Shown piece after piece: positions 12,559 to 57,868 of a DNA stretch of 61,917 bases. The stretch is from Lujinxingiaceae bacterium. Lineage in GTDB: Bacteria > Myxococcota_A > Bradymonadia > Bradymonadales > Bradymonadaceae. How positions within the stretch are numbered: position 1 is the first letter of the stretch; each line of letters starts with the position of its first letter. Made by a program: the position numbers and the translations under genes. The DNA lies in the NCBI GenBank assembly GCA_013697635.1, contig JACCWM010000007.1, positions 1 through 61,917 on the forward strand, in the 5' to 3' direction. The notes below the pieces were generated by a model, which made no database searches, was not told the DNA's origin, and saw only the letters and a program-made list of their open reading frames with translations.

Positions 12559-12667
12559 GGATTAAAGACCTCGTGTGGGGTTTACAAGACAGGGCGCGTT
12601 CTATCACCGTCTGGAGCAGGCGGCAATCCGCGCATGAGCCCAGGCGTCAATGACGACGCCAAAAGCC

Positions 12668-12926
12668 GGGGGGACAAGCCCCCAGGCTCCGTTTACAGAT
12701 ACAGCGCCCTCGTGGCAGGCAAGCCTGCCGGGCGCAATCAGGATAATAACGTCTCTGCCCGTACCCACGTGCACCGGCGCGCCTTGGCGCGAGAGCCGGT
12801 GCTGTATCTGCTCGACGAGCCTGGGGGCTTGTCCCCCCAGGCGGACGTGGTGTCGGTGAACGTTTTTGGCGGGCTGTCGGGGGGTCAGGGCAGCCGACGG
12901 GCCGCCTGGGGGCTTGTTCTCCCAGG
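12668..12926. repeat. REP-like GC-rich hairpin cluster in the 12559-12958 gap
   Basis: The 400-bp gap upstream of asnS holds no gene I believe. It contains three related hairpins with core GGGGGCTTGTCCCCC or its complement: 12668-12689 (reverse orientation), 12817-12838 and 12903-12926 (degenerate, GGGGGCTTGTTCTCC). The first two are perfect 22-bp inverted copies of one another, and each is also self-complementary, so both local hairpins and a large stem are possible. The core resembles the hairpins of the 70-bp repeats near 44 and 47 kb. Confidence 0.7.
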
Positions 12927-31489: not shown

Positions 31490-33550
31490 TCATGGCACCG
31501 TGCGCTGGCCCTCGTCGTTTCTGCCCCAGCAAATGACTTCACTATCGAAGCGCAGCCCGCAGCTATGGTAGCCGCCGGCGCTGACCTGGGTGAACGTGCC
31601 GTTTGGCGAGTTGGACTGGTTACTCGAATTGCTGCCCCAGCACGCCAGAGTGCCGTCGGTGTCGACCGCACAAGCGTGGCGCCGGCCAGTGCTCACGTCG
31701 AGGTAGGTCCCACCGGGCGCCGAGGTGCGTGCGGTCGTGCCGGCATTGCCCCAGCAGTGAAGCGTGTCGTTTGCTCGGATGCTGCAGGTGTGCTCGTCAC
31801 CGGCGCTGATCCGTTGGAAGACGGTGCTGCCCGGCACGGTGCTTCGTCCGTCACCGGAATTTCCCCAGCAAACGCCCGCGCCGGCTTCGCTGACCGAGCA
31901 ATTGTGCTCATTGCCCGTACTCACGTCCATGAACGGCCCTGTGCGCACCGCGCCATTTCCGGTCTGACCACTGGTGTTGTAGCCCCAGCACTGGATATTC
32001 TTGGCGGCATTGATTGCGCAGCCGTGGCGGCCTCCCGCGCTGACTTTGGTGAAGGTGCCGGTCGGCGCATTGAGGCGGTTGTCGTTGGGCCTGCCCCAGC
32101 AGCGCAAGGCGCCCGCTCGGGTGATCGCGCAGGTGTGGTAATTGCCGGCGCTGATGTCGAGATAGCGCGTCGCGTCGGCCGGCACGGCCCGCTGCCCTTC
32201 GCTGTTGTCGCCCCAGCACACAACGGAGCCGTCGGTGCGCCGAGCACAGCTATGATAGAGCCCGGCGCTGACCTGGGCAAAGGGGCAGGGCGCACACGTG
32301 GCGCCGCCGCAGTCCAGGCCGGTCTCGTCGCCGTTTTGCACCCCATCCTCGCAGGTGGGAGCAGCGCAGAGGCCGTTGCCGGCGCAAACGCGGCTCGAAC
32401 AGTCGCGATTTTCGATGCACGTATCGCCGTCAGCGCATGTGGTGGTGCAGGTGGGGCCGCCACAGTCGACGTCGGACTCGTCGCCGTTTTGCACAGTGTC
32501 CTCGCAGCTTGGCTCGGCGCAAAGACTGTCGACACCGCACACACCGCTGGAGCAGTCTCGCGCCAGAAGGCAGGCCAGGCCGGGCGCGCACGGCCCACAG
32601 CTGGGACCGCCGCAATCCAGGCCGGTCTCTTCGCCGTTTTTCACGTTGTCGTTACAGCTTGGCGCAGCACAACGGTTCTGAGCGCTGCAGACGCCGCTCT
32701 CGCAGTCTGCGGCCAGCGTGCAGCCCAGATCGAAGCCACATTTTGTTGCACAGGAGCCGCCACAATCGACGTCGGTCTCGTCGCCATTTCTGACCTGATC
32801 GTTGCAATTCGGAGAGGTGCAGACGAGCTCATCACAGATCTTGCTGGTGCAGTCGCTATTCTCGATGCACGACTGCTGCGGCGCACAGGCCGGGCAAGGG
32901 CCGCCGCAGTCGACATCGGACTCGCCAGGGCCATGGATCTGGTCGTCGCAGCTTGCGGCCACACAGAGGTTTGCTATGCACACATCTTCAAGATCCGGGC
33001 AGGCCAGGCAATTGATCGGACGCAATGTGCCACAGCGGTCGACGACCGAGCGTTCACCGCACTCGAATGCTCCCGCAACGCAAAACGAAGAATCAAGTGG
33101 GGGATCGCAGACGCATTGGCTCAACTCGCAGCGCTCGCCAGCACCACAGCCATCGCACTCGATCGATCGCGCATGCCCGCAACCATCGACGACGTCGAGC
33201 GGGCCGCAGGCTGCCTCGTGCTGTATACACAGGGTAAGGTCGTCCTCGCCCTGGCAGGCGTCGGCGTCCGACGTGTCCGATGCATCGGCATCAACGTCTT
33301 CCAGGACATCGGGTTGCGTGGGATCGGTGTCGATCTGGGCATCGGCATCGGCATCAGGGGTCCCGATGTCGTCGAGTTGCACCCAGACGCCGCCCTGGCA
33401 CACTCTATCGCCAATCAGGGCACCCTCATTGGTGCATTGAATCGTGCTCAGGCTGTTCGACTCGAAGGTGCATCCCGACAAGGCGATCAAACCGGCGACG
33501 ACCAAGGCAAGCTTGCTTAACCGTATAAAATCTAAAGAAATCGGAAACAT
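31490..33550 (-). CDS. Lipoprotein with five Cys-rich repeats and RCC1-like beta-propeller
   Basis: 686 residues from the ATG at 33548-33550, preceded by AGAGGT. Lipobox LSGC. An Asp/Ala-rich stalk (DADADAQID, DVDADASDTSDADAC) is followed by a Cys-rich module and five repeats of about 53 residues, each containing a version of C.D.V.NGDETDVDCGG and a C..C....DC.S.VC core. The C-terminal 270 residues hold seven RCC1-type blades, each with a CWG motif (VCWGDNSEGQ, QCWGYNTSGQ, ICWGRNDEGQ) and an upstream HxCA/HSC. Cysteines in adjacent blades could be disulfide-linked. A surface-exposed adhesive or ligand-binding protein is inferred. Confidence 0.85.
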   Translation of the reverse strand: MFPISLDFIRLSKLALVVAGLIALSGCTFESNSLSTIQCTNEGALIGDRVCQGGVWVQLDDIGTPDADADAQIDTDPTQPDVLEDVDADASDTSDADACQGEDDLTLCIQHEAACGPLDVVDGCGHARSIECDGCGAGERCELSQCVCDPPLDSSFCVAGAFECGERSVVDRCGTLRPINCLACPDLEDVCIANLCVAASCDDQIHGPGESDVDCGGPCPACAPQQSCIENSDCTSKICDELVCTSPNCNDQVRNGDETDVDCGGSCATKCGFDLGCTLAADCESGVCSAQNRCAAPSCNDNVKNGEETGLDCGGPSCGPCAPGLACLLARDCSSGVCGVDSLCAEPSCEDTVQNGDESDVDCGGPTCTTTCADGDTCIENRDCSSRVCAGNGLCAAPTCEDGVQNGDETGLDCGGATCAPCPFAQVSAGLYHSCARRTDGSVVCWGDNSEGQRAVPADATRYLDISAGNYHTCAITRAGALRCWGRPNDNRLNAPTGTFTKVSAGGRHGCAINAAKNIQCWGYNTSGQTGNGAVRTGPFMDVSTGNEHNCSVSEAGAGVCWGNSGDGRSTVPGSTVFQRISAGDEHTCSIRANDTLHCWGNAGTTARTSAPGGTYLDVSTGRRHACAVDTDGTLACWGSNSSNQSNSPNGTFTQVSAGGYHSCGLRFDSEVICWGRNDEGQRTVP

Positions 33551-33641
33551 GATCGTACCTCTTTGACTACCCAAAGGCGTAATGGCTTTCTCTACTATAG
33601 AGCAAAGTCGTCAGCCCAGCTACGTACCAGGCTTGGATAGT

Positions 33642-42972: not shown

Positions 42973-43136
42973 GTGTACTCTCCAGAGTCATTCGGATCAG
43001 ATAAGGATTTTCGAGGTCGGCGACTGTGCAAGTTCTAAACACCCGTGCACCTCTTGGCAATGGTGTTCGAAGTGATTAGCTTGGCCGCTCGCTCGTGCAA
43101 AAGCATCGCAGCCCACCGTTTGCCCGGATAAAGAAC

Positions 43137-43886
43137 ATGGAGATCGCGGCAATACATTTCCCGCCAACGCCCGACGACACCCAGTGCGCGCGTCTGATCG
43201 AGCTCTTTGGCCGCGTCGCCGACCTGCTCGCGGCCAGCGACGTGCAGGGCGTGGCGACGACTTCGCTGCTCATGGGCATGCTCTGCGCGCCCGGCGAGCC
43301 AACCGGCGTGCTGTTTACGAACACCGATGCCCGCGCTCAGGTTGTGGCTCGCCAGGCCGACATTCTGGCGCCGCTTGGCTACACCTCGCTTCTTTTCTGC
43401 GCGGCCGACGAGCTCGGCGTCGGCGAGCATCTGCAGCCCGAAGATCTGGGCCAGCTCGGCGGCTGGGGCGTGCTGGTGGGAAGCGTCGGGCTAAGCGGCA
43501 AGCCGCTGATTGGCATGCGTGTCGATGCGCTACGCCGCGAGCTCACCGAGAGCCGCGCCCTGTTGAGCGCGGCCTGTGGCTATCCGGTGATGGCGCTGTG
43601 TCCGCGCGCCGATGAGCGAGGCCACAGCGTGGACGGCCTGGTGCTGAGCGAGGCGCGCCGGGCGGGCTATACGTTGGTTTTCCAGGAGGGCGCGCAGGTG
43701 ATCGACGCGCGGTTTTTCGAGGCCGGCGCAGCGGCTGTGGCGCTGCCGCAGCGCACCTTGATGGTCGATGACCATCCGTTCGAGGTGCGCAAGTGGGTGC
43801 TTGGCGAGGGGATTGCCAGGAAGGTGGCCGCGGCGCGGTATTATGCCGAGGGGCCGATGCGCTTGTTGCGGATGCTGCGCACTTAG
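43137..43886 (+). CDS. Unknown protein with polysaccharide-deacetylase-like C-terminal part
   Basis: 249 residues from the ATG at 43137; the open frame starts 14 codons earlier, but there is no better signal there. No export signal. The C-terminal half (RRELTESRALLSAACGYPVMALCPRADERGHSVDGLVLSEARRAGYTLVFQEG) resembles the late part of NodB-type deacetylases, where a similar 'LE..TG.PV..FAYP.G' segment is followed by a 'agGY..a' motif, but the metal-binding Asp and His residues of that family are not evident. It may therefore be a catalytically dead relative. Last core gene before the accessory island. Confidence 0.5.
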   Translation: MEIAAIHFPPTPDDTQCARLIELFGRVADLLAASDVQGVATTSLLMGMLCAPGEPTGVLFTNTDARAQVVARQADILAPLGYTSLLFCAADELGVGEHLQPEDLGQLGGWGVLVGSVGLSGKPLIGMRVDALRRELTESRALLSAACGYPVMALCPRADERGHSVDGLVLSEARRAGYTLVFQEGAQVIDARFFEAGAAAVALPQRTLMVDDHPFEVRKWVLGEGIARKVAAARYYAEGPMRLLRMLRT

Positions 43887-43916: not shown

Positions 43917-43937
43917 TGCGCATCTCTCGGGCGGTTT
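43917..43937 (-). repeat. Dispersed repeat, left island copy
   Basis: Reverse complement reads AAACCGCCCGAGAGA plus six further bases, matching 20 of 21 bases of the sequence at 57001-57021 and 57807-57827. Orientation is opposite to those copies. It sits 31 bases after the last gene left of the accessory island. Confidence 0.75.
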
Positions 43938-44034
43938 CTTTTTAAGATCTAAGAACCCTTCGAGCAGTACACCACCGAAAACGAAGGCGACGCCCGCTAA
44001 TTTTTTCACATCGCCCCATTGCCCCACACCCAGG

Positions 44035-44104
44035 TCCGCCAGGGCTTGCCCTGGTCAGCGGACCCACGTCCTTGCACGAGCCTCGGGCCTTGTCGCCCCG
44101 GGTG
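44035..44104 (-). repeat. 70-bp multi-hairpin repeat, inverted copy left of the PLD-helicase gene
   Basis: By eye 64 of 70 bases match the reverse complement of the repeats at 47011-47080 and 47142-47211. It contains the self-complementary CCAGGGCTTGCCCTGG and a second hairpin around GGGCCTTGTCGCCCC. It lies 49 bases beyond the stop codon of the helicase gene. Confidence 0.88.
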
Positions 44105-44152
44105 GGCGTCGAATGCGTCCGCCTGGCCGGTGATGGCTGGCCTGACATAGCC

Positions 44153-46921
44153 CTACGTCAACGATTCCATGACCGCATCCGGAACCGAAAACTGCAGACC
44201 AAACGTCACGTTCATCGGCCCGCTCCCTTGCACAGCGATGACCCTCACCGGCCCAAGATAAGTCGGCGAAGCGTGCGAGCGTGGCTGCACGAATAGCCGC
44301 AAGGTCTTTTGGGATTGCTCATGATCCAAGATCATCCGCCCGCCTACATTATCTTGGCGTTGATTGTTCTGGCTCTGCCAGTGAAATCGGTCCGCGCCCT
44401 CAAAACGGTTGGCATATTGAAACTCCGTCTTCGCCCCGCTGGTGTCGATCTTGGTGATCAAGACGATCTCGTCAGGACACGGCGCCTCCGCCCTGAACTT
44501 GATCACGCCGATATTGTGCAGGGCCGGATCGTACTGCAGCCCGAAGTGATTGATGATCTCCGGCCGCTCGTAAGCGCGATGGAGCACCAGCGCCGATGGC
44601 GAACGCAGCGTGCCACCGTGCCGCGTCCGGTAGTTTCGCTCGAGATGATACTGGATGCGCCGCTCCACCTGCATGCACAGCACATCCCCTGACGGGAAGG
44701 CCGCATAAATCTCCGCCCGCAGCGTCCCCCCCACCACCAAGCGCCCCAGCTTCTTACCCAAAGTTTGCCAAACCTTGGTGCTCTCCAACGGTGCGTACTC
44801 GACCATCCAACGCGGAAAACGCCTAAAGAACTGCTCATACCCCTCGTTGACGTCCTCCGGCGAGCGACATAGCGCCCAAAGCAGCGCATAGGCGTACACC
44901 CGCGACTGCTGCCAATCGCGCTCGCAGGCCATCAACAAGTCGTGGGCCGCAGAGCCTGCATCGATCCGCTGCTCCCAATCCTGAGCGTCGCCCATCGCCA
45001 CCCGACAATCCAACCACGAACCGAACGCCGCCCGAAAGTCCCCCAGCTCCGGCACATCCGCTCGCCCCAAAAGGTCGACCGGAAACGGAGGCCCAATCTC
45101 CGAGCGCAGCACCCGATAGGACTCCGCGCACCACTCCTTCTTCTTTCGTCCCTGGGCCCGAACCTTGACCAAGATCTCGCGCGTCAAGTCGTCGAGCATG
45201 ACCTCACAATGCTTGGGCGGCGTGAAATCCAGATCCTGAACGGTCGATGGTCCCGGCGGCGCGTTCTGGTCCATCAGCGTCGCCACCGTCAACCAGGCGT
45301 TTCGATGATGCCCCACGAAGTCGAGCACCGTCAGCACTTCGCAATCCGGGCTCAACCGCAAGCCGCGGCCAAGCTGTTGGATAAAGATCGTGGCCGATTC
45401 CGTCGGCCGCAAAAACAGCAGCGAGTTGATACCCGGAATGTCCACGCCTTCGTTGAGCAGGTCGGCCACAAAAAGCCACTCCAGTGGATCGTTTGGGTCT
45501 TGCAGCGCCTCGTAAACCTCGATTCGACACGCGAGCGAATCCTCACCCGTGAGCGCCCGCGCGCAAAAACCACGGCGCACCAAAACATCCGCCATGAACC
45601 GCGCGTGCCGACGCCCCGCACAAAAACCCACCGTCGCACGCCGCCGCCCATCAAACCCTTTTTCCAGCGCATGCTCCAACACATGGTCGACCCGTGCCTC
45701 CAGCATCAGCGCGTTTTCTACCTTGTTGATATCGAGCTTCGCGCTGCGCCAGAACGACGCCCCATAGTCGACCGTCGTGTCCGCGATCCCGAAATAATGA
45801 AACGGCACGAGCCACGACCGATTGATCGCCTCGATCAGCCGAATCTCGTACGCGATATTGAAATCACACAGCGCCAGTACATCGTGCCCGTCCTGTCGCT
45901 CCGGCGTCGCCGTCAGACCGAGCAGAAAACGTGGCTGAAGCTGGTCCAACAATCGCCGATAGCTCGGAGCGGCAGCGTGGTGGAACTCATCGACGATCAC
46001 GTAGTCGAATCGCCGCTCCAACAGCTTCGAGTCGACGGCCGATTGCACCGTCGCGAACACCAAGTCAGCGCTGACCTCTCGGCTGTCACCATAGACAAGT
46101 CTTGTCTTCGCACCGAGCCCGTACACCTTGCGAAAAGTCTCTCGCGCCTGCGTCAAATGCTCGAGCCGATGAGACAAGAATAGCACCGTTTTTGCCCCGG
46201 CCGCCCGCGCATCAAACGCCGCCAAAAAGGTCTTTCCCACGCCCGGCGCCGCAATCACCACCGCCTTGGATTCCCCAACGTTTCGCAGTCTCTCCAGTTG
46301 ACCCAGCGCTTCGATCTGCGCCGGATTCGGCGTCGCGACCCTCGCCACCCCAGCAGGCAACCTGGGAACGTCCATGGCCCCAGGAAACGCGAAGTACGCC
46401 TCCAACAGAGCCTGCGCATAGGCATCGGTCAGCGCCTCGTCCAACCGGAACACATCAGGCCGCTCCCACATCGCCTCAAACGCCGCCAGCGTTTGTTGAA
46501 CCGCCTGCGGATCGCGCTGCAAAAGGTTGGCCTCGATATTCGTCGTCAGCCCCCCCTTCGACAAGTTGGAAGACCCCACCCAACACTCCATCGTGTCCCC
46601 ACTGAACACGAAGAACTTCGGATGAAACCCGACCTGCTGAAACCCCACTTGCCGCGCCACATGAACCCGAACCGCCACCCCCTCCAACGTCGCCAACACC
46701 CGCAACGCCGCCGGCTGCGTAATCCCCATATACGTCGACGTCAAAATCCGCGCCCTACCCCCCCGCGCCACCAACGCCTTGAGGTCGTCCACCAGCAACT
46801 GCAACCCACTAAACCGCACAAACGACACCGACAACGCCACCTCGTCAGCGCGCCGCAATCCCGACCGCACCACATCCAGCATCCGGGCCTGACCAGCCAT
46901 GTTTGTTACGAGCAGATTCAT
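44153..46921 (-). CDS. PLD nuclease - SF2 helicase fusion (DUF3427-type)
   Basis: 922 residues. N-terminal phospholipase-D-like nuclease domain with H100-x-K102 and GSSN at 116-119 (HKD-type half site). SF2 helicase follows: Walker A APGVGKT ending at T231, DEFH box at 311-314, TATP at 337-340, FVADLLNEGVDIP and motif VI QQLGRGLR. The last 300 residues match the DUF3427 type (C-terminal restriction/modification-associated region: FPSGDVLCMQVERRIQYH, SPSALVLHRAYERPEIINHFGLQYDP, FQYANRF). Such fusions are known as components of restriction-like or phage-defence loci; here it is a stand-alone gene bracketed by inverted repeats, next to the SMC operon. A DNA-targeting defence role is inferred. 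Confidence 0.85.
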   Translation of the reverse strand: MNLLVTNMAGQARMLDVVRSGLRRADEVALSVSFVRFSGLQLLVDDLKALVARGGRARILTSTYMGITQPAALRVLATLEGVAVRVHVARQVGFQQVGFHPKFFVFSGDTMECWVGSSNLSKGGLTTNIEANLLQRDPQAVQQTLAAFEAMWERPDVFRLDEALTDAYAQALLEAYFAFPGAMDVPRLPAGVARVATPNPAQIEALGQLERLRNVGESKAVVIAAPGVGKTFLAAFDARAAGAKTVLFLSHRLEHLTQARETFRKVYGLGAKTRLVYGDSREVSADLVFATVQSAVDSKLLERRFDYVIVDEFHHAAAPSYRRLLDQLQPRFLLGLTATPERQDGHDVLALCDFNIAYEIRLIEAINRSWLVPFHYFGIADTTVDYGASFWRSAKLDINKVENALMLEARVDHVLEHALEKGFDGRRRATVGFCAGRRHARFMADVLVRRGFCARALTGEDSLACRIEVYEALQDPNDPLEWLFVADLLNEGVDIPGINSLLFLRPTESATIFIQQLGRGLRLSPDCEVLTVLDFVGHHRNAWLTVATLMDQNAPPGPSTVQDLDFTPPKHCEVMLDDLTREILVKVRAQGRKKKEWCAESYRVLRSEIGPPFPVDLLGRADVPELGDFRAAFGSWLDCRVAMGDAQDWEQRIDAGSAAHDLLMACERDWQQSRVYAYALLWALCRSPEDVNEGYEQFFRRFPRWMVEYAPLESTKVWQTLGKKLGRLVVGGTLRAEIYAAFPSGDVLCMQVERRIQYHLERNYRTRHGGTLRSPSALVLHRAYERPEIINHFGLQYDPALHNIGVIKFRAEAPCPDEIVLITKIDTSGAKTEFQYANRFEGADRFHWQSQNNQRQDNVGGRMILDHEQSQKTLRLFVQPRSHASPTYLGPVRVIAVQGSGPMNVTFGLQFSVPDAVMESLT

Positions 46922-47010
46922 AACGCCAGCCTGCCAGGCGGCCGATGGATTGGCAATGTGGGGTTTGTTTTTGGGAGGTCGGGTGCTTGAGGTGTTGATG
47001 CACGCACACC

Positions 47011-47080
47011 CACCCGGGGCGACAAGGCCCCGGGCTCGTGCAAGGACCTGGGTCCGCTTTTCAGGGCAAGCCCTGGCGGA
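47011..47080 (+). repeat. 70-bp multi-hairpin repeat, first right copy
   Basis: Identical to 47142-47211 and inverted relative to 44035-44104. It carries three self-complementary parts: CCCGGGGCGACAAGGCCCCG, GGACCTGGGTCC and CAGGGCAAGCCCTG. It lies in the 399-bp gap 46922-47320, which has no gene. Confidence 0.92.
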
Positions 47081-47141
47081 CTTGCGTCGAGCTTGCCGGA
47101 CACTCGGGGCGACAAGGTCGACGGCGCACGCAATCGACGTG

Positions 47142-47211
47142 CACCCGGGGCGACAAGGCCCCGGGCTCGTGCAAGGACCTGGGTCCGCTTTTCAGGGCAA
47201 GCCCTGGCGGA
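47142..47211 (+). repeat. 70-bp multi-hairpin repeat, second right copy
   Basis: Exact duplicate of 47011-47080, offset 131 bases. Between the two is a partial degenerate copy of the first hairpin (47101-47118, CACTCGGGGCGACAAGGT). The rest of the 46922-47320 gap shows nothing else. Confidence 0.92.
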
Positions 47212-47320
47212 CCTGGAGGCTCCTTCTTGTCTCTTGCGAGCGAGAGCTTCGCCTTGTACGGCCTGGTCTGCCCGCCGGGAGCCCAGATAAGGTTTGGTCG
47301 AGAGTAGCTCGTGATGCGCA

Positions 47321-48310
47321 TCAAGCGCTGGCCTCGAGGCTGGCTTCCAGGGCGGTGGTGAGGCGAGGGTCGAGGGCGGGGAGTTCTTGTTCGAGCCAGA
47401 GGTTGCGGGTGATGAGGGTTTGGACGAGGGGTGGGAGGTCGTGGGTGGGGAAGTCGGGGGGCCAGTGGCGCGGTTGGGCGTGGGTTTCGAGGTAGTCGGT
47501 CCAGAATTCGGGGACGAACCAGCGCAGGGTCGGGTGCAGGGTGCGCAGGTGGCGGGTGATCTGGACGCCCATGGGGTCGAGGTCGCCGAAGTGGAGGACG
47601 GGGATGGCGGGGTAGTGGTTGAGGAGCTGGGCGATGGTGCGGGTGTCCCAGCCGGGGACGTGGGCGATGAGCCAGCCGGGGGGGTGGGGCAGGTCGATGA
47701 AGGGGCCGCGGTTCTCGACGAGGAGCAGGGCGCGGGGTGAAGGGCCGCAGAGGCGCGTGCCGTCGGCCAGGGCGCGCTCGGTTATGGTGAGCTCGCCGGT
47801 GAGCGTGGCGACCTGGTGGGCGTCGAGGGTGAGCTCGGCGCGGCGAAGCTCCATGCCGGGGTGGGGGCGCAGGCGGACGAGGCCGTCGTAGGTGAGCTCG
47901 AGGCTGCCGAGGGTTTCGCGGTGGGCGGGGGTGAGCGTGGATTTGGAGTGGCGCGCCACCATGGCGGTGGCCGAGCGGCGGTTGAGGCGCTCGGGTAGCG
48001 CGTCGAGGTCAATCTCGGCGGCGCGGCGACGGCGCTCGAACTCGCGCCAGCCGCGCTCGTCGGGGGTGAGGCCCTCGTGATCGAGCATGGCGAGGGTGGT
48101 GGACCAGTCGGGCCAGACGCGGTCGAGCAGCGCTTCGATGTAGAGGCGGCGCGCTTCGTCGATCTGGAGCTCGTCCTGGCGGGTGGCGCGACGGCCCCAG
48201 CCCAGGCGCAGGAGCTCGTCGAAGGCCTCGCTCTGGGATTTGCGGCGCGGGAGCAGGCCGGTTGACCAGAGCTCGAGCAGGGCGAAGCGATGGGGGGTGG
48301 ACGACCACAT
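47321..48310 (-). CDS. jetD: JetD/MksG-type Toprim nuclease subunit of the SMC operon
   Basis: 329 residues. In Wadjet/MksBEFG systems JetD (MksG) is the Toprim-fold nuclease that cleaves DNA after loop extrusion by the SMC complex. The C-terminal half has the expected motif order: LLLVENRGPF (E199) and VLHFGDLDPMGVQITRHL (D243, D245), with IAHVPGWDTRTIAQLL between. The N-terminal DUF3322-like arm is short (about 190 residues) compared with the usual JetD of nearly 400 residues. The ATG overlaps the mukB stop by one base (TGATG), so it is the last gene of the operon and translationally coupled. Canonical MukBEF operons of Enterobacteria lack such a gene. Confidence 0.85.
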   Translation of the reverse strand: MWSSTPHRFALLELWSTGLLPRRKSQSEAFDELLRLGWGRRATRQDELQIDEARRLYIEALLDRVWPDWSTTLAMLDHEGLTPDERGWREFERRRRAAEIDLDALPERLNRRSATAMVARHSKSTLTPAHRETLGSLELTYDGLVRLRPHPGMELRRAELTLDAHQVATLTGELTITERALADGTRLCGPSPRALLLVENRGPFIDLPHPPGWLIAHVPGWDTRTIAQLLNHYPAIPVLHFGDLDPMGVQITRHLRTLHPTLRWFVPEFWTDYLETHAQPRHWPPDFPTHDLPPLVQTLITRNLWLEQELPALDPRLTTALEASLEASA

Positions 48311-51300
48311 CAGGCCGGCTCCGGGTCAGCGATGGTGCGCCGGCCGGTGACCTCGACGCGCTCGCGGCCCTCGGCGTCGAGTGTGCGCACCAGCCGGTAG
48401 GTCGTATTACCCACGGCCTGGGCGACCTCGGGGGCGGCGATCAAGAGCTGGAGCTCGAGGCTCTGGCACAGGTCGAAGAGCACGGTGAGGCTGTCCTGGC
48501 TGAGGCGCGTGGCCTCGTCGAGAAACAACAGGCGCAGGGTGCCGCCGGCCGAGCTGCTGCGAAAGAGGTTGGCGTCGCGCTCCCAGGCCGTGAGCACGAT
48601 CATCATCACGGCCGCGCCCACGCCGATCGCCTCGCCGGTGGACATGCGGTTGGGGTTGGCGCGCTCCCAGGTGACGGCGGCCTGGCGGTGCACCTCGACC
48701 TCGAGCTGCATGTACTCGCGGTAGTCGAGCATGCGGTCGCCGCCGGTGCGACCACCGCCGTAGCGGCGAAAGAGCTCGTCGAGGGCCTGTTCGATCGGCA
48801 CGTCCGTCTGGAAGAGCAGTTGCTGGGCCGAGCCGTCGCGCAGGGCGCGCAGCACCTGCTCCATGCGCTCGACGCGCTCGACGCGGATGCGCACCGAGCG
48901 GATGCTGCCGAAGCTGACTTGTTCGAGATCTTTGCTCAAGCGACGCACGACGCGGTGGGCCTTGCGGATCTGGGTATCGATATTGCGGGCGATGTCGGAG
49001 GACTGGCCGCGAAGCTCGTGCTCCTGGCGGCCGAGGCGCTCTTCGAGCTCCATGAGGTGGCTGCGCAGGCGGCGCAGGGCCTCGAGGGGATCGTCGACCT
49101 CGGAGATCTGGGCGGGCACGCGGCGGCGAAGCCAAGCCTGCACGGCGAGCCAGGCCTCGAGGTAGGCCTCGCCACGCTCCTGCTCGCCGTCGTGGGCGAT
49201 GAGCGCGTCGATCGCGGCGATGAGCTCGGCGCCGTCGCGTGTCGATTCGAGCCGCGCGCGCAAGGTGGCGTGCTTGTTCTGGGCCTGCGGCCACAGGTGC
49301 ACGCCGGCCTTGTCGGCGACGGCTGCGAGGCTCGCCACGTTCGTGGCGTTGGCGAGCACGCCTTCTTGCTCGGCGCGGGCGCGCAGGCGCTGCCAGCGCT
49401 CTTCGGACGGGCGCCACATGTTCTCCTCGTTCTCGACGAGCCGGCGTCGTGTGTCGAGGCGTTCCCCTTCGGCGCGCAGGCGCTCGTCGAGCGTGGCGAG
49501 CGCTACCTCGAGCGCGCGGCCCTCGCGATCGAGGCGGGCGGCCTCGTCGCTCGCTTTGTCGAAGGCCGCCTCGACGCCCTGCACGGCCGCGGCGCTCGGG
49601 TCGTCGATCGCCAGGCCGGCGAGCTCTTCGCGCTCGCGGGCGAGCGTCGAATCGCGGGCATTCAGCTCGGCGGTGTGATTGGCCGCCGTGCTGCGGGCGT
49701 CTTCGAGGCGGTGTCCGGCCGTCGATTCGGCCTGGCGAGCGTTGGTGCAGCCCTGCTCGGCGCGCTCGAGGTTTTCCTGGAGCGCGGGTGCCAGGCGTTC
49801 TTCGCGGGCGAGCTGTTCGTGAGCGCTGTGCCAGGCAAAGGCGTGGGTGTGAGCTGCGACGTGGGCCAACCACTGTGTCGCCTGAGAGAGGCGGTCGCGC
49901 TCGGCGGTGGCGTTGTGCAAGGCGACGCTGTGGCCGGCGAGCTCTTCGTCGCGCGGGGGCAAGGTGCGAAGCACTTCGATCTCGGCGGCGAGCCGGCGGC
50001 GATCTTCAGTGCATGCCGTAATGCGAGCGGCGGCTTTATGGGCCTGGTCGAGGCGTGTGCGCGAGGCCTCGAGGCGACTGGCGACGTCGGGCTCGTCGAG
50101 CAACCAGGCCAGCTCGAGCAGGCGGCCGAGGGCGGCGCGTCGAGGTTCGAGCTCGGCCAACTGCTGGCGGTGGTGGTGCTCGAGGCGCGTGTGTTCCTGC
50201 CGCTCGCGCTCGGCGCCTTCGAGCTCGGCGCGGGTTGCCTCGAGCGCCGCGCGCGGGTCGTCGCGCTCGAGCAGATGCGCGGCTCCGAGCAGCTCCCGGG
50301 CGCTCTTGAGATCTGCGTCGAGGGTATGCAGCCGCTGGCGCAGGCCGTCGCGCTCGGCTTCGACGGCCGAGGCCTCGGCGTCGAGCTGGGCGATGCGTTT
50401 GGCGCGCGCCGAGCGTCCGATCGTCGGCTGTTTGGGGATGCGCGACAGCCGCCAGGCCGCGCGATCTTCGACGAGCACGTCGTCTACGATGCGTTCGCCG
50501 GGAGGCCGGCCGCCGTCGTCGAGCCCGAGGGTCTGGCCTTCGCCGACGAGCCAGACGGTGGACGGGCGCAGCTCGGTGGCGGCGAGCTTGCGGGCGGCGG
50601 CGGCGACATCTTCGACGAGGATCGCCTGGTGCAGGGCGCCGAGGCGGGCCTCGATTTCGGCGGCGTGCTCGATCTCGACGTCCTCGAAGCGCACAGCGAG
50701 CAGCTCGCCGTCGACCACATCGCGGGCGCGGACCAGGGCGTCGTCGAAGTGGCCGCCCATCTGCTCGAGCTGGCGCGCTTCGGTGCGAAGCGCGTCGTAT
50801 TGGCCGTCGGACTTGCGCAAGGTGGCGGCGAGGGTTTCGCGGCTGGCGCTCGCGGCATCGATCATGGCGAGGACGTCGGCGTTGGTTCGCAGTTGGAGAT
50901 CCCACCGTGCAGCGAGCCTGGTGGCGACGTGCTGCGTCGCTTGCCAGGGACCGACGAGGGCGTCGAGCTCGGTGGCGCGCCGGGTGAGCTCGTCGGCGCG
51001 TGCGCGGGCGTCGCGGGCGCCATTGGCGTGCTCGGCTAACCGGACTTCGTGCTGCGATCGAAGCGCGTCGGCCGCGTCAAAGGCCTCGCGAACGGCGGCG
51101 GCGTCGAGCAGCGGACGCTCGAGCGTGGAGAGTTGCCGGGCCGTATCAAAGGCCTTTTGCTGGCGGCCGGCCTGCTCGTCAAGGCGCGCGATCTCCTCGC
51201 CGAGCTGGCCGCGCTCTTTGGCCAGCGCGTCGAGCTCGCGCAGCGCTTCGAGCGCCGCGCCGGCCTGGGTGTAAGCCGTCTCAGGCCGTAGCTCGGCGTC

Positions 51301-52737
51301 GAGCAGTCGGGCGAGCACTTCGAAGACGGCACCAAACTGGCGGGCGTGTTCGTGGGCGGTGGAGAGCTCGCGCTCGAGGCGCACGATCGTCGCGTCAAAG
51401 GTTGCGATCTCTTCGCGCAACAAGGCCTCGCGAGCGTCGGCGTCCTCGGGCGCGAGCTCTTCGCCGAGAGCATCGCGTGCTTGAGCCAGGCGGCGGGTGA
51501 CGAGCGCGTAGGCGGCGGCCTGGAGGTTGAGCTCTTCGAAGCCGGCGTTGAAGTCGGCCAGGCCGCGGGCGGCGCGGTCGCGCTCTTGATCGGCGCGGGA
51601 CACCTCCTGGCGCGCGCGATCGAAGGCGTCTTGCGCGATGTCGCGGGCGCGGACGGCCCCTTCGAGCTCGAGCGCGAGGCCGCGGCGCTGCTCCTCGAGC
51701 GCCAGGATTCGCTGGTCGATCCCGAAGGCTTTGCGCGTGCGCTCGCGCAGCTCGCGCAGGCGCTCGACGCTCTGGCGAGCTGTGTCGAGCGAGGCGGTCA
51801 GCGCCTCGGCCTCGCTGCGGCGCTGTTCGACGACGGTCTGCAATTCGTCGAAGTCCGCCTGGACCCGCTCGAGCTCCTTTCGGGCATCGTCGAGGCGCAC
51901 GGCGAGCTCCTGGGCGCGCCGGGCGGTGGCGTGAAAGGCGGCGACGAACATGGCGCTGCCGGCCTCGTAGACGCCGTGAATCTCTTCTTCGAGGCGGCGC
52001 GCCTCGTGGACCTGCTGGCGGGTGCGCTGGCAGGCAACGAGGTTGGCCTTCATGCGCTTGAGCGTGTCGGCCAGGGTGTTCTCCTCGCGCAGCAGGAAGT
52101 CGCGCAGGCCGCCGGTCAGCGTCTTGGAGATACCGCCGACCATGCTGGTGCGAAGCATCTCGTTGAACTTGGTGAGCTCCTCGGGGCTGGAGAGGCGCAG
52201 CGGCGTGATGCCGCGGTCGAAGAGCGCCGCGAAGTAGTCTTTGGTCGCGCGAAAGGCCGTCAGCTTGCCGCCGCACAGCGCCACGAGCTCGCGCACCCGG
52301 GCGAGCTCGGCGACGGCGTCGACCTCGCCGCGCTCGAGCAGGACGTCTTGAAGGGAGTGGCGCGCGTCGAGATCCGTGATGATGAAGGGCGTGAGCTCGA
52401 CGGTGGGCTCGGTGCGCCGCTCGAGGTGCACTCCGGCGACGAGGCGTTCACCGCGCGCCGTCTTCAGATCGAGCAGCGCATACGAAGGCGCGCCCGGCTC
52501 GCCGAGTCGCCCGTAAATGCCGCGGTCGCCACCGCTCGAGCCCGACTCGCCGAGGTTGGTGAAGCGAAGGCGCTGCAGGTCGGGCAACAGCACGATGTAG
52601 GCGCCGATCATGACCGTGGTCTTGCCCGCGCCGTTGGCCCCTTCCAGCGCCGTGACGTGCGAATCCAGATCATAGCGTGCGTAGAAGACGCCTCGCCAGT
52701 TGACGAGCACGAGGCCTTGGACGCGGGTGCGATTCAC
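48310..52737 (-). CDS. mukB: MukB-like SMC ATPase
   Basis: 1475 residues, close to the 1486 of E. coli MukB and much longer than usual JetC/MksB. The start (GTG at 52735-52737, AGGA six bases upstream) gives RVQGLVLVNWRGVFYARYDLD, matching the MukB N-terminus (LTLVNWNGFFARTFDLDE). Walker A GANGAGKT at 33-40; PDLQRLRFTNLGESG...RGIYGRL aligns with the MukB head. Most of residues 230-1300 is Arg/Glu/Ala-rich coiled coil with a central break (about 620-780) for the hinge. ABC signature STGEAIG at 1366 and Walker B LLFLDEA (D1407, E1408), then LIAAPE as in MukB. DNA-loop-extruding motor with MukF/MukE; coupled to JetD. Separated from mukE by an inserted cassette. Confidence 0.9.
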   Translation of the reverse strand: MNRTRVQGLVLVNWRGVFYARYDLDSHVTALEGANGAGKTTVMIGAYIVLLPDLQRLRFTNLGESGSSGGDRGIYGRLGEPGAPSYALLDLKTARGERLVAGVHLERRTEPTVELTPFIITDLDARHSLQDVLLERGEVDAVAELARVRELVALCGGKLTAFRATKDYFAALFDRGITPLRLSSPEELTKFNEMLRTSMVGGISKTLTGGLRDFLLREENTLADTLKRMKANLVACQRTRQQVHEARRLEEEIHGVYEAGSAMFVAAFHATARRAQELAVRLDDARKELERVQADFDELQTVVEQRRSEAEALTASLDTARQSVERLRELRERTRKAFGIDQRILALEEQRRGLALELEGAVRARDIAQDAFDRARQEVSRADQERDRAARGLADFNAGFEELNLQAAAYALVTRRLAQARDALGEELAPEDADAREALLREEIATFDATIVRLERELSTAHEHARQFGAVFEVLARLLDAELRPETAYTQAGAALEALRELDALAKERGQLGEEIARLDEQAGRQQKAFDTARQLSTLERPLLDAAAVREAFDAADALRSQHEVRLAEHANGARDARARADELTRRATELDALVGPWQATQHVATRLAARWDLQLRTNADVLAMIDAASASRETLAATLRKSDGQYDALRTEARQLEQMGGHFDDALVRARDVVDGELLAVRFEDVEIEHAAEIEARLGALHQAILVEDVAAAARKLAATELRPSTVWLVGEGQTLGLDDGGRPPGERIVDDVLVEDRAAWRLSRIPKQPTIGRSARAKRIAQLDAEASAVEAERDGLRQRLHTLDADLKSARELLGAAHLLERDDPRAALEATRAELEGAERERQEHTRLEHHHRQQLAELEPRRAALGRLLELAWLLDEPDVASRLEASRTRLDQAHKAAARITACTEDRRRLAAEIEVLRTLPPRDEELAGHSVALHNATAERDRLSQATQWLAHVAAHTHAFAWHSAHEQLAREERLAPALQENLERAEQGCTNARQAESTAGHRLEDARSTAANHTAELNARDSTLAREREELAGLAIDDPSAAAVQGVEAAFDKASDEAARLDREGRALEVALATLDERLRAEGERLDTRRRLVENEENMWRPSEERWQRLRARAEQEGVLANATNVASLAAVADKAGVHLWPQAQNKHATLRARLESTRDGAELIAAIDALIAHDGEQERGEAYLEAWLAVQAWLRRRVPAQISEVDDPLEALRRLRSHLMELEERLGRQEHELRGQSSDIARNIDTQIRKAHRVVRRLSKDLEQVSFGSIRSVRIRVERVERMEQVLRALRDGSAQQLLFQTDVPIEQALDELFRRYGGGRTGGDRMLDYREYMQLEVEVHRQAAVTWERANPNRMSTGEAIGVGAAVMMIVLTAWERDANLFRSSSAGGTLRLLFLDEATRLSQDSLTVLFDLCQSLELQLLIAAPEVAQAVGNTTYRLVRTLDAEGRERVEVTGRRTIADPEPA

Positions 52738-52747
52738 GATTCGTCCT
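52729..52747 (-). repeat. 19-bp direct repeat at the mukB start (cassette right boundary)
   Basis: On the minus strand AGGACGAATCGTGAATCGC, spanning the SD, start codon (GTG) and first codons of mukB. 18 of 19 bases match 54944-54962. Confidence 0.9.
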
Positions 52748-52773
52748 GGTGGTCATCGACGACCAAGGCCGCA

Positions 52774-53310
52774 TTACTTAGTTGCGGCATCAACGATGTC
52801 ACGCGCCCAGGCTTGGACGATCTCAGTTTCATATTGGCGGCTTCCAACGGAGTTGCGACAACTCTTGTCGAGCTCGAGAATGTGGGGCGCAATGCTTGTT
52901 CGACGGATCGTGACGAGCATTGCGCTGTCGCTTAGGAGCTTTGCCTGAACAGACAGCGCCAAGGCGGACAGCTTCGCTTGATCGAAAGGTATTTCATAAT
53001 GCGCGTTCTGGATGCAACGGAAGGCCTCGATGTCGGGCTCTTTCTTAACCGTGAGTCCCGCCTGATGCAATAGATCCTCGGGGATGCGGAGATACCTCAA
53101 GTGATCTTGTTTGCGTCGGGTGTACGCGGCCACCGCCGTCGGAACATCAACATTCGAAGCTTCGTCGAGCAGCCACAGTGACAGAGTTTGCTCCGCAGAC
53201 CGCAATTGAAAATGACGCAGAAAGTCCTCGATGAAGTGGTCGGACTCCGGGGTTTCCAGGATTGATGGGCTCCTGCTGATAAGCCGGATATAGACGCGGC
53301 CTGCAGTCAT
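52774..53310 (-). CDS. Insert gene C: unknown protein
   Basis: 178 residues. No signal or membrane segment. A mixed alpha/beta protein with a helical middle (TAVAAYTRRKQDHLRYLRIPEDLLHQAG) and a region resembling a regulatory or nucleic-acid-binding beta fold (LSALALSVQAKLLSDSAMLVTIRRTSIAPHILELDKSCRNSVGSRQYETEIVQAWARDIV). No family recognised. Third gene of the three-gene cassette between mukE and mukB; it starts three bases after the upstream gene and stops 36 bases before mukB. The GC content of the cassette is visibly lower than its flanks. Confidence 0.7.
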   Translation of the reverse strand: MTAGRVYIRLISRSPSILETPESDHFIEDFLRHFQLRSAEQTLSLWLLDEASNVDVPTAVAAYTRRKQDHLRYLRIPEDLLHQAGLTVKKEPDIEAFRCIQNAHYEIPFDQAKLSALALSVQAKLLSDSAMLVTIRRTSIAPHILELDKSCRNSVGSRQYETEIVQAWARDIVDAATK

Positions 53311-53313
53311 CGC

Positions 53314-53979
53314 TTACGCCAGCACGGTTTCCACAGCATATTTGACGCGAGGATCTGGATCGTCCCGCAATAATTTACCTAAGGTCTCCAAATCCGAAAC
53401 CACGTCCAGGCCCTCGACCACGCCCAATCGAATCAAAACCGGCGCTGTCGTCAATAGCTCCTTAATGGAGCGAAATGCCGCAGCATCAAGTTGGTGAGTC
53501 GTTTGCTCCCGCGGTGTGGCAAGAGCTGGCTGTGTGCGCGGATAAAGACTCTGAACGTAGAGGCGTGCGGCGGTCGCGCGCAGCTCCATGCTGATGTCCT
53601 CTCGAATTACGAGATTTCGGAGTGCGTAGACATCGCGCTCTGGACCCCAGGCCAACTCTTCGAGCAGCTCGTACGCTTCATCGAAGTCGAGCGAATAGCT
53701 TTGCTCCAACTCGTTCAGGATCACCTCTTCAGCTCGGCGTGTACCGCGACTCAAGCCGGTGTACAAAGAATGACTGTCTCCATGCCAGACAAACTGTTGC
53801 GTTTCTAGTGAGGAAGATCCCAGCGCTGCACGCGCGATACTCTTGAAATCTCTGGCAACAGTAGCAGGTCCTCGAATCACGGCCCTCACGTGTTCTCGTA
53901 CGCTGGCCGATGGGAGTTTGTCTCGCGCGGTCACTTTGTTGTCCAGTAGCGTTGCCCATTGAAGACTTTCCATCGTCAT
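53314..53979 (-). CDS. Insert gene B: unknown protein with HEAT-like helical C-terminus
   Basis: 221 residues from the ATG at 53977-53979, which overlaps the stop of the preceding gene as ATGA; a second ATG follows at 53971-53973. Helical throughout. The C-terminal half reads like HEAT/ARM-type repeats (VYALRNLVIREDISMELRATAARLYVQSL and LIRLGVVEGLDVVSDLETLGKLLRDDPDPRVKYAVETVLA). No enzymatic motif. Middle gene of the inserted cassette, tightly coupled on both sides, so the three products probably act together. Confidence 0.7.
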   Translation of the reverse strand: MTMESLQWATLLDNKVTARDKLPSASVREHVRAVIRGPATVARDFKSIARAALGSSSLETQQFVWHGDSHSLYTGLSRGTRRAEEVILNELEQSYSLDFDEAYELLEELAWGPERDVYALRNLVIREDISMELRATAARLYVQSLYPRTQPALATPREQTTHQLDAAAFRSIKELLTTAPVLIRLGVVEGLDVVSDLETLGKLLRDDPDPRVKYAVETVLA

Positions 53980-54743
53980 AGCTCCGCTTGTGAGAACTGC
54001 TCGACCTCTTCTTCGTCGAAGAGACGCAGTCCTGACTCTTTTTTGTATTCCTCGGTCAGAGCGTTCCACAGCAGGCGCTTTTGCCGACGATGGGCGTCAT
54101 CAAACCATGACAACTTGGACGGCTCCGACCACTGTTTGGCTGTGATGGGCCGTTCGCCCAAGACGTCGAAGCGAACGACTGCAATATAATTCGATGGCAC
54201 GTTGTCGGCATCTGCGCGCTCCAGACCCATTGAATAGCGAATCGTCGTCTGGGTATCGACCTCTCCCAAGCAGGTTTCTTCGTGAAAAGTCGCCGTCATG
54301 TCACAGAGGTTGGTAGCGGAACGGACCAACGGTTCGATCGTGCGCAAAACACCTGCCAAATCAACAAGGGTGGGAGCTTGAAAAACATCGACATAACGTA
54401 GCAAAAACGCTTCGAAGGGCCGGTCGCCGTAGGCCTTCTGACAAAGAACCAAGTCGTCCAATGCGCGCTTTTTGAAAGAAGGCCAGCTCTGGTAGTTGAG
54501 CGCGCTCACTCCAACCGCGTTATGACCAGCAAATATAACGTGTGACTCGTCGTCCTCATTCACCAGGCCGTATAGAGGCCCGATCTCTCCGGAATTCAAG
54601 CGTTCACCGATCTCGGAGACCGGCTGAACCGCGCGATTCGGGAAGAGGTTGCTGAGCCGGTACAACGGCAGATCGACATAGTCGACCGCTTCAAAAAAAC
54701 CGACCAAGCTGCATTCCGTTAATGGAACCGGAGAGTGGCTCAA
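53976..54743 (-). CDS. Insert gene A: TIGR04255-like protein
   Basis: 255 residues from a TTG at 54741-54743 with GAGGG five bases upstream; another TTG at 54801-54803 opens the same frame but has no site. The layout resembles the sporadically distributed TIGR04255 family: a hydrophobic opening (PLTECSLVGFFEAVDYVDLPLYRL), a central SALNYQSWPSFKKRALDDL, a FEAFLLRYVDVFQAP strand and a C-terminal LSWFDDAHRRQKRLLWNALTEEYKKESG helix. Biochemical function of that family is unknown to me. First gene of the cassette. The 145 bases between it and mukE (54804-54948) hold no other gene and should include its expression signals. Confidence 0.65.
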   Translation of the reverse strand: MSHSPVPLTECSLVGFFEAVDYVDLPLYRLSNLFPNRAVQPVSEIGERLNSGEIGPLYGLVNEDDESHVIFAGHNAVGVSALNYQSWPSFKKRALDDLVLCQKAYGDRPFEAFLLRYVDVFQAPTLVDLAGVLRTIEPLVRSATNLCDMTATFHEETCLGEVDTQTTIRYSMGLERADADNVPSNYIAVVRFDVLGERPITAKQWSEPSKLSWFDDAHRRQKRLLWNALTEEYKKESGLRLFDEEEVEQFSQAEL

Positions 54744-54943
54744 GTTAACCCTCTTCAAAAGCAAACGTGTTCGGACATTGCAGCGCCGTTTCGAAGCACC
54801 CAAGCGCTTTTGGGCATGGGCGATTACGCGGTTCTATGCAGATATAACAAAAGTTAATAACCAAAGCGATCACGGCGCCCTACATAATTGATAGCCAGAG
54901 TCATAATAGAGCAGCGAACTTGTCGGTCCCATCATGGCGCAGC

Positions 54944-54962
54944 GCGATTCATGATTCGTCCT
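54944..54962 (-). repeat. 19-bp direct repeat at the mukE end (cassette left boundary) with mukB start remnant
   Basis: On the minus strand AGGACGAATCATGAATCGC. It contains the last codons of mukE and, overlapping its TGA stop as ATGA, an ATG followed by AAT CGC, the first codons of mukB; this stub ORF ends after six codons (MNRAAP). It looks like the original mukE/mukB junction. Confidence 0.9.
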
Positions 54963-55611
54963 CCTCAGGTTCGTGCTCGTCGTGGTCTTGGTCGACGTCG
55001 GCCTCGCCGCGGCCGATCATGCGCTCGAGGGCGCGGGCGGGCTCGTCGGTGGCGCGCACGGCCTCGGCGAAGCGCAGGAGCGCGGCGCGAAGGCGCAGGT
55101 TTTCGGGGTCGACGACGTCGATGAAGCCGAGCTTGTTGAGGGTGCGAAGGGCGCGATCGACCTCCTTTCTGGCGAGTTCTTGTTCGACGCGCTCGTCGCG
55201 GCGGCTGCGGCGAGGATTGAGGGCCTGGAGCAGGCGCTCCTCGCCGACGAGGCTGACGAGCAGCTCGACGAGCTGGGCCTTCTTGACGCTGCCGCCGGCC
55301 TGCACCGTCGAGGGGTCGAGCAGCATCAGCGCCAGGGCCTGGCCGACGAGCATCTCGGCGATCGAGAGGCGCTGGCGGCCCGTCGTCTCACGCAGCGGCA
55401 CCAGGAAAAAGTAGCCATCGGCGGCGCGGGTGAGCACGAGGCCGTAGCGCTCGTATAAGGGCTCCAAAAATTCCAGCGCGTCTTCGAGGAAGCCGTACCA
55501 CTGCATGGTCTCCTGGTCGACGTGCACGCCCTCGCGCAGGGCCTGGTCGACCTCGGGGAAGAGCTCGTCGAGCACGACATCCTCGAGCCGGTTATAAGTC
55601 GGGTGGCTCAT
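54949..55611 (-). CDS. mukE: MukE-like subunit
   Basis: 220 residues from the ATG at 55609-55611, overlapping the mukF stop as ATGA. It matches MukE (E. coli 234 residues) in order and sequence: LFPEVDQALREGVHVDQETMQWYGFLEDALEFLEPLYERYGLVLTRAADGYFFLVP corresponds to LFPALDSALRSGRHI.....[32 protein letters not shown], followed by RLSIAEMLVGQALALMLLDPSTV, EERLLQALNPR, and RTLNKLGFIDVVDPENLRLRAALLRFAEAVRA. The acidic C-terminus (DEHEPEEDES) is also MukE-like. Two winged-helix domains are expected; the protein bridges MukF and the MukB head. Confidence 0.88.
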   Translation of the reverse strand: MSHPTYNRLEDVVLDELFPEVDQALREGVHVDQETMQWYGFLEDALEFLEPLYERYGLVLTRAADGYFFLVPLRETTGRQRLSIAEMLVGQALALMLLDPSTVQAGGSVKKAQLVELLVSLVGEERLLQALNPRRSRRDERVEQELARKEVDRALRTLNKLGFIDVVDPENLRLRAALLRFAEAVRATDEPARALERMIGRGEADVDQDHDEHEPEEDES

Positions 55612-56906
55612 CGTCGTTCGCCTGCGTCGACGGTCCATTCTTCGACCTCCAGCTCGGTGCCGACGGGCACCCAGGAACGCTCCCAGGGGCTGGAGATGCG
55701 CGTCGTGCGCGCGAGCAGCTCGGCGATGCGTCCGGCGGCGCGAAAGCGCTCGTTGGCGCCGAGCTCGGGGAGCACCCACTCGAGCACCTCGGAGAGCGAG
55801 AGCGCGCCGGCATCGAGCGCGGCCTGCACGCGGTCTTCGAGGCTGACCGGCCCGCGATCGAGCGGGACTTGTTCGAGCGGGCGCTCGTGCTGCTGGCTTT
55901 GGCGCTTGACGATCGCTTGCACCGGCCGCGTCTCGGGCTCGCGCAAGACGCGCAGCCTCGGCCCGCGGGCGTAGACGAGGAAGTAGGGGTTGTCCGGGAA
56001 GACGGCGAGCTGCTCGCGCAGGCGTTGGCTCAGGGCGCGGTCGGGGTCGAGGCGCACGACCGAGCGCAGGTAGCGTTGCACGAACTGGTAGTAGTCGCTC
56101 CAGGCGCCCTGGCGGTTGGCGCTCCAGGCGACCACGCGGTCGATCTGACCCATGACCTTTTGCGCAGCGTCCTCGGCCTCTTCGGCCCCGGCTTGCCCGG
56201 CAAAATCCTCGATCTCCTGGAGCAGCGCCTGCAGGTGCGCCGTATCACGCAGCAGCACGTCGGTGAGCTCCTTGAGCGTCGCGGTCGTCTCCTCGAGCAG
56301 GGCCTCGCAGGCGTCGACCGAGGCAAACCAGTCCTTTTGCAACAGCCCGGCGATCTGCTCGCGCACCGACTCCTGGTGCGCGTCGAGGCCGCGCGCGCGC
56401 CGCTCGATGCCGCCGACCAGATCTCCGACGGCGACTCGCAAGGGCTCGATCACCTCCTCGCGCCACTGGGCGATGGTCTCGGCTCGGCTCGCGCAAAGCC
56501 GAACCTGCGCGAGCTGCGAGAGCAGCGTCTTGGTCAAGACCGTCAGGCTCTCCCGCGTGAGCGCCTCGTCCTCCAGGAAGAACTCCACGATCGCGCTCGC
56601 CAGCCGCGTCAGCGCGTAGTCACCGGCCCGCACCAGCCCTGCCCCATCGACGCGCCCAAGCAGCCGCTGCTCCCGCAAGCGCTGCAAGGCGTGGGTGGCC
56701 CGCTTGCGCGGATTACCCACCGCGCCCTCGGTCAAATCGCAGATCTGCTCGTAGACGTCGAAGAGCACTTCCTCCTCGAACGCCGTCAACCCCAGACGCG
56801 TTCCCCGCTCGCGCAGCGCGATCAGAAAGCACAGCTCCGTGGTCTCCAGCGTAAGCGCCGCGTTGGCCTGAGCCAGAGCGCCGATGAGGCGATGAACGTC
56901 GGTCAT
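55608..56906 (-). CDS. mukF: MukF-like kleisin
   Basis: 432 residues (E. coli MukF 440) from the ATG at 56904-56906, with GGAAG seven bases upstream; the 24-residue longer frame is rejected. N-terminal winged helix (LTLETTELCFLIALRERGTRLGLTAFEEEVLFDVYEQICD, KRATHALQRLREQRLLGRV). The middle segment 183-214 (REQIAGLLQKDWFASVDACEALLEETTATLKEL) parallels the MukF segment KDDIAQLLNKDW..AISSCELLLSETSGTLREL. The C-terminus is a second winged helix that should bind the MukB head. Kleisin that dimerises and recruits MukE. First gene of the operon; 56907-57247 upstream should hold the promoter. Confidence 0.88.
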   Translation of the reverse strand: MTDVHRLIGALAQANAALTLETTELCFLIALRERGTRLGLTAFEEEVLFDVYEQICDLTEGAVGNPRKRATHALQRLREQRLLGRVDGAGLVRAGDYALTRLASAIVEFFLEDEALTRESLTVLTKTLLSQLAQVRLCASRAETIAQWREEVIEPLRVAVGDLVGGIERRARGLDAHQESVREQIAGLLQKDWFASVDACEALLEETTATLKELTDVLLRDTAHLQALLQEIEDFAGQAGAEEAEDAAQKVMGQIDRVVAWSANRQGAWSDYYQFVQRYLRSVVRLDPDRALSQRLREQLAVFPDNPYFLVYARGPRLRVLREPETRPVQAIVKRQSQQHERPLEQVPLDRGPVSLEDRVQAALDAGALSLSEVLEWVLPELGANERFRAAGRIAELLARTTRISSPWERSWVPVGTELEVEEWTVDAGERR

Positions 56907-57000
56907 GGTCGAACTTCCAGGGAGCAAGAGACTGATACGCAGCCGGGGATGGTAGTGCTTTGGAGCGCTTGTGCGCAAGCTGCGAAAAACCGCCCGCGAA

Positions 57001-57062
57001 AAACCGCCCGAGAGACGCGCAAAGTCATTTATTCATGCGCCCGAGAGCTGATCTACGCCGTC
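57001..57062 (+). repeat. 62-bp dispersed repeat, copy 1
   Basis: Begins AAACCGCCCGAGAGA; 56 of 62 bases match 57807-57868 in direct orientation. Just before it (56986-57000) a degenerate copy of its first bases is present. It lies in the 341-bp gap 56907-57247, in which I see no gene. Confidence 0.85.
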
Positions 57063-57806: not shown

Positions 57807-57868
57807 AAACCGCCCGAGAGACGCGCAAAGTCGTTTGTTCATGCGCTCGTGAGGTGATCTACCCCGTC
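57807..57868 (+). repeat. 62-bp dispersed repeat, copy 2
   Basis: Direct copy of 57001-57062 (six mismatches), 35 bases after the stop of the barrel gene. Its right end overlaps the end of the fragment at 57859-58158. Confidence 0.85.

Follow-up and report, generated by a model that had tools for sequence, protein, structure and literature searches.

REP and BIME elements are mosaic in habit, and lie chiefly in intergenic regions downstream of genes (PMC3733652; PMC2817692; PMC3116915). REPINs consist of two inverted copies of one REP, and a REPtron places a Y1 transposase gene between two inverted copies. A further class of palindromic sequences, the non-autonomous elements of IS200/IS605 type, have transposon ends and cleavage sites, and movement of this type leaves no target duplication. 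SauUSI (PDB 7clg), a type IV restriction enzyme from S. aureus, has been described as comprising nuclease, ATPase, coupler and SRA target-recognition domain (PMC7913695).

The window considered here, a stretch of 61,917 nucleotides from the genome of a Lujinxingiaceae bacterium (contig JACCWM010000007.1), brings these subjects together: a SauUSI-like gene stands between inverted copies of a palindromic repeat, and a preliminary description had suggested that gene and repeats might form a mobile defence cassette or a REP-mediated capture unit.

The SauUSI-like gene and its defence island

Analysis of the region between the repeats confirmed that its sole gene (44153-46921, reverse strand) codes for a 922-residue PLD-SF2 helicase-DUF3427 protein, and that its reading as a defence gene was sound: the best PADLOC match was to a type IV restriction enzyme profile, and the best PDB match by sequence was to 7clg (E 8.8e-87). 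The domains recognised were PLDc_2 (PF13091), ResIII (PF04851) and DUF3427; the nuclease motif H100xK102 (H100-P-K102) and the ATPase motifs GVGKT (227), DEFH (311) and QQLGRGLR (515) were all intact, and residues H100, K102, D311, E312 and H314 were invariant in 20 homologues. A 20-homologue profile aligned with residues 16-918 of 7clg (E 9.4e-187), across the nuclease, the ATPase, the coupler and most of the target-recognition domain (806-953), and 7clg was likewise ranked first by Foldseek over the whole length of the predicted structure (E 8e-46), a model of medium confidence (pTM 0.52).

Like SauUSI, the protein unites in a single chain a PLD nuclease, an SF2 ATPase, a coupler and a C-terminal target-recognition domain, here a DUF3427/SRA-like region, and the HxK and DExH motifs are common to both; the two differ in that they exhibit only ~24% identity in structural alignment, and in that the nuclease motif H-x-K-x4-E of SauUSI is represented by H-P-K-FFVF-S. 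Since a PLD nuclease with HxK, an SF2 DExH ATPase, a coupler and an SRA-fold C-terminal domain are the features by which the SauUSI family of modified-cytosine-dependent type IV restriction enzymes is recognised, and all are present, the protein belongs to that family, by analogy with which it would function as a stand-alone, modified-cytosine-dependent, ATP-driven nuclease.

The gene lies in a defence island that spans at least 13 kb and also contains jetD-like, mukB, mukE and mukF genes and a Cas3-like helicase. The muk operon occupies 47321-56978 on the reverse strand (jetD-like, 47321-48310; mukB, 48310-52737; mukE, 54949-55779; mukF, 55608-56978), and its MukB product clears the relevant NCBIfam cut-off (899.8 vs 699 bits). 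A full MukBEF operon with a terminal JetD-like gene looks like a MukBEF-based Wadjet-like system. Within it, also on the reverse strand, mukE and mukB, which in relatives adjoin one another, are separated by three genes (52774-54803) whose GC content is low (0.54-0.55, the muk and jetD genes having 0.69-0.71), one of which is TIGR04255, the others matching no Pfam, PADLOC or NCBIfam family. Contiguous mukF-mukE-mukB-jetD genes in the related genome G007, and mukF-mukE-mukB genes in G021, were each recorded without the three extra genes and with no SauUSI-like gene alongside; the three are possibly a nested insertion. The Cas3-like helicase (PF22590; 60529-61917, forward strand) runs off the end of the contig, and a CRISPR-Cas locus may therefore lie beyond it. 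Direct repeats of 209-365 bp with 66-69% identity were recorded elsewhere in the window, at 32285-32806 inside ORF 31490-33574.

The repeats as members of a dispersed hairpin family

The ~70-bp repeats reported at either side of the gene were confirmed in both position and orientation, with cores at 44034-44104 (reverse strand), 47011-47081 and 47142-47212 (both forward strand). The two on the right are identical over 71 bp and stand in tandem with a period of 131 bp; the left core matches them on the opposite strand with 91.5% identity over 71 bp (E ~1e-25 within the window), and the inverted match reaches 94 nt (44030-44123 vs 47123-47216, 89%). Folding indicated two robust hairpins in each unit in place of the three originally proposed, within an element of ~80-95 nt. 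All three copies are of the B subtype: the left element (44027-44121, reverse strand; 92% to the right copies) is located where ORF 43095-43886 (forward strand) and the SauUSI-like gene converge with their 3' ends, the first right element (46995-47088, forward strand) is 74 bp upstream of the start of that gene, and its tandem partner (47125-47219, forward strand) is ~100 bp downstream of jetD. An Rfam search of 40000-61917 returned no family up to E 1.

Copy number was established by searches of the 6.21-Mb draft genome, which comprises 213 contigs. The 74-bp unit was present as seven full-length copies, three in the window and one each on contigs C176, C34, C158 and C67, and a covariance model made from these seven, deployed with a match threshold of E <= 1, gave 25 matches, nearly all across the full model, at ~14 intergenic places, a count that is a lower bound since members of the family occur at the ends of several contigs (C68, C119, C110, C73, C158). 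The hundreds of intergenic copies that, according to the preliminary description, would have made the bracketing accidental were thus not found. A second repeat set, obtained independently by DNA search and including two repeats that adjoin a Y1 transposase gene on C73, was also recovered by the model, and two further intergenic members lie in the same window, one of A2 subtype (12644-12742, forward strand) and one of A1 subtype (12765-12860, reverse strand). Tandem arrays are common (C68, C119, C73), and members were intergenic wherever gene calls were confident. A search of 56 relatives yielded marginal partial matches and no full-length copy. Tandem GAGAACGTGATC repeats at ~11300-11460 of C158 (L019) immediately precede the family copy with which that contig closes.

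Almost all members have in common a first hairpin of the form CCYGGGGN-RACAAG-NCCCCRGG, after which the spacer starts CTCGT or CTCCGT; the second hairpin is of three interchangeable types (B, A1 and A2), each combined with the same hairpin 1. The motif CAAG was present in hairpin 1 in 23 and in hairpin 2 in 22 of 24 full copies. An alignment of 29 rows placed 91.6% of cells in standard pairs, with compensatory change in 17 of 25 pairs and a covariation score of 0.389 (shuffled, 0.111; structure slid, <=0.082), values to be read with the qualification that the alignment had been fitted to the covariance model and was hence biased towards the modelled structure. RNAalifold applied to the same alignment returned the same two hairpins, 12 of 17 pairs being compensated. 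The covariation, the intergenic sites and the tandem arrays bore out the initial view of the repeats as palindromic and REP-like, and we conclude with considerable confidence that they constitute one dispersed intergenic two-hairpin family of REP/BIME-like character.

A role as functional RNA hairpins, selected at the ends of jetD and of the restriction gene for 3'-end protection or transcription attenuation, is suggested by the placement of one copy between convergent gene ends and two downstream of jetD, placement of a kind that is usual for REPs (PMC3733652), and by the strong folding of the right copies (z from -1.8 down to -4.1 vs shuffles). However, only ~14 places are occupied, and the fold of the left copy scarcely surpasses those of its shuffles (z -0.4 and -1.0); selection of this kind is considered an unlikely explanation.

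The Y1 transposase and the described relatives of the family

A Y1 transposase, which it had been proposed to seek in the genome, is indeed present: an IS200-like gene on contig C73 has two family copies immediately upstream in the same orientation. A search conducted with filters off detected no copy downstream of this gene, and the contig begins inside the repeat array. The protein matches PF01797; a TnpA of ISDra2 type is the closest match to it in the PDB, and the eight solved relatives found were IS200/IS605-type TnpA chains, with no TnpA-REP chain among them. Near the other seven Y1 genes of the genome, marginal BLAST matches to the repeat were the only ones recorded.

A second dispersed family is also present. 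The 20-bp repeat GCGCRTCTCTCGGGCGGTTT gave 25 matches genome-wide with <=2 mismatches, on contigs that include C67, C123, C182 and C208, and in four places two copies of it, inverted with respect to each other, bound a miniature element of 214-217 bp. Its three occurrences in the window, at 43918-43937 (forward strand), adjoining the left copy of the two-hairpin element, 57001-57020 and 57807-57826, were considered as the ends of the island and rejected, each being a solo end of this separate element. One end of the same repeat lies downstream of the C73 transposase.

Comparison of the two-hairpin family with REP/BIME/REPIN elements and their RAYT transposases revealed a number of likenesses: short, GC-rich, imperfect palindromes in intergenic positions, often in tandem arrays; mosaic modules with compensatory changes; and copies beside a resident Y1 transposase. 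There were also differences. Some 25 copies were found against the usual >100, and the unpaired GTAG or CGTC tag at the palindrome end by which REPs are recognised was lacking: GTAG was found in none of 24 copies, and CGTC was only sporadic (<=10 nt before hairpin 1 in four of 24, and in the spacer in nine of 24). Whereas a REPIN is built from two inverted copies of one REP, the present unit has two non-identical hairpins in fixed order. Copies were found only 5' of the Y1 gene, the best solved relative of which is of ISDra2 type; where a REPtron would have an inverted copy on either side, the two found at the C73 gene lie upstream in one orientation, on a contig that starts within the array. 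Because GTAG is absent and the Y1 gene is without a downstream copy, the family is called REP-like and is not filed as a REP member. Non-autonomous palindromic elements of IS200/IS605 type offer a further parallel, in their hairpins, a resident Y1 transposase and the expected lack of target duplication, and by their hairpin structure the repeats may be likened to such elements.

Origin of the bracketing arrangement

The explanation that best accommodates a dispersed family is that a Y1 (IS200/IS605-like) transposase, for example that of C73, probably copied single-stranded hairpin DNA to generate new copies, which would have built up wherever insertion was tolerated, chiefly past the ends of genes, and could there serve as mRNA 3'-end hairpins. 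With a single copy beyond the 3' end of the SauUSI-like gene and the tandem pair beyond jetD, the gene looks bracketed. Weighing against this account are the confinement of the C73 copies to the 5' side of the transposase gene, the ISDra2-type best match of its product, the missing GTAG tag, and a share of B copies at one gene that somewhat exceeds independent scatter. The repeats are probably dispensable for its function.

A special case of this dispersed-family explanation is local spread, whereby a copy reached the far side of a gene already present, either through inverted duplication or through a local move, making the bracket real but secondary and without cargo function. Three of the seven B copies lie at one gene, and by a rough hand estimate, in which 6 places for B or 14 for the whole family are scattered independently over 6.2 Mb, ~0.01-0.1 pairs of places would be expected within 3 kb; that estimate, more closely 0.015 to 0.09, is post hoc, and halves if opposite orientation is required. 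The two right copies are a tandem duplication, and the three window copies alone have a spacer with one A more (AAGGA, elsewhere AAGG), an insertion on account of which the arms may be non-independent. The clustering of B copies and the common extra A are hints of local spread. Nevertheless, the left arm is not overall the nearest relative of the right arms, and a lone 1-nt insertion may recur or be lost; local spread is accordingly a tenable reading to which we accord somewhat less than an even chance.

The remaining proposal, in which the inverted repeats serve as ends for a non-autonomous defence cassette moved in trans by a Y1 transposase, draws on the enclosure of exactly one gene by inverted arms, the location of three of the seven B copies at that gene, the presence of Y1 transposases in the genome, the 1-nt insertion common to the arms, and the GC3 of the gene (0.75), which is lower than that of its neighbours (0.82-0.92). 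Against this, a search for target duplication flanking either the composite or any single copy revealed nothing above random background, an argument of limited weight as IS200/IS605 elements make none. The closest homologues in same-family genomes, those of G005 (65%) and G009 (52%), stand in other gene contexts without the repeats, the inverted repeats sought around them amounting to matches of 13-19 nt only. The right arm at 47142 is nearer to the C176 copy (0/74 substitutions and a 1-nt gap) than to the left arm (6/75), the first hairpin of which is partly degraded. A second bracketed gene was not seen, and the other full copies adjoin unrelated genes (a T2SSE/pilB-type ATPase, an AAA ATPase gene beside recC, a phosphoesterase and unassigned genes). 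G010, G007 and G003 share the block of hisC, M16 peptidase and ORF 43095, which stops at the point where the island starts; in same-family genomes the region past ORF 43095-43886 differs wholesale, and a clean empty site lacking just this gene was not found. The suggestion of a mobile cassette or REP-mediated capture unit for the SauUSI-like gene is consequently not supported, and ends of this kind are considered very unlikely. Also very unlikely is the proposition that the family, with its swappable hairpin 2 and CAAG in each hairpin, represents a class of miniature element that lacks GTAG and is mobilised by Y1 transposases, and whose inverted copies can carry a restriction gene as cargo.

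Taken as a dispersed family, the repeats show in a concrete case how palindromes scattered through a genome can mimic the ends of a gene cassette. The hairpin family is itself of modest interest, having no GTAG tag and two members that adjoin a Y1 transposase gene, and the analysis assigns a SauUSI-type enzyme to a defence island, beside a MukBEF-JetD operon.
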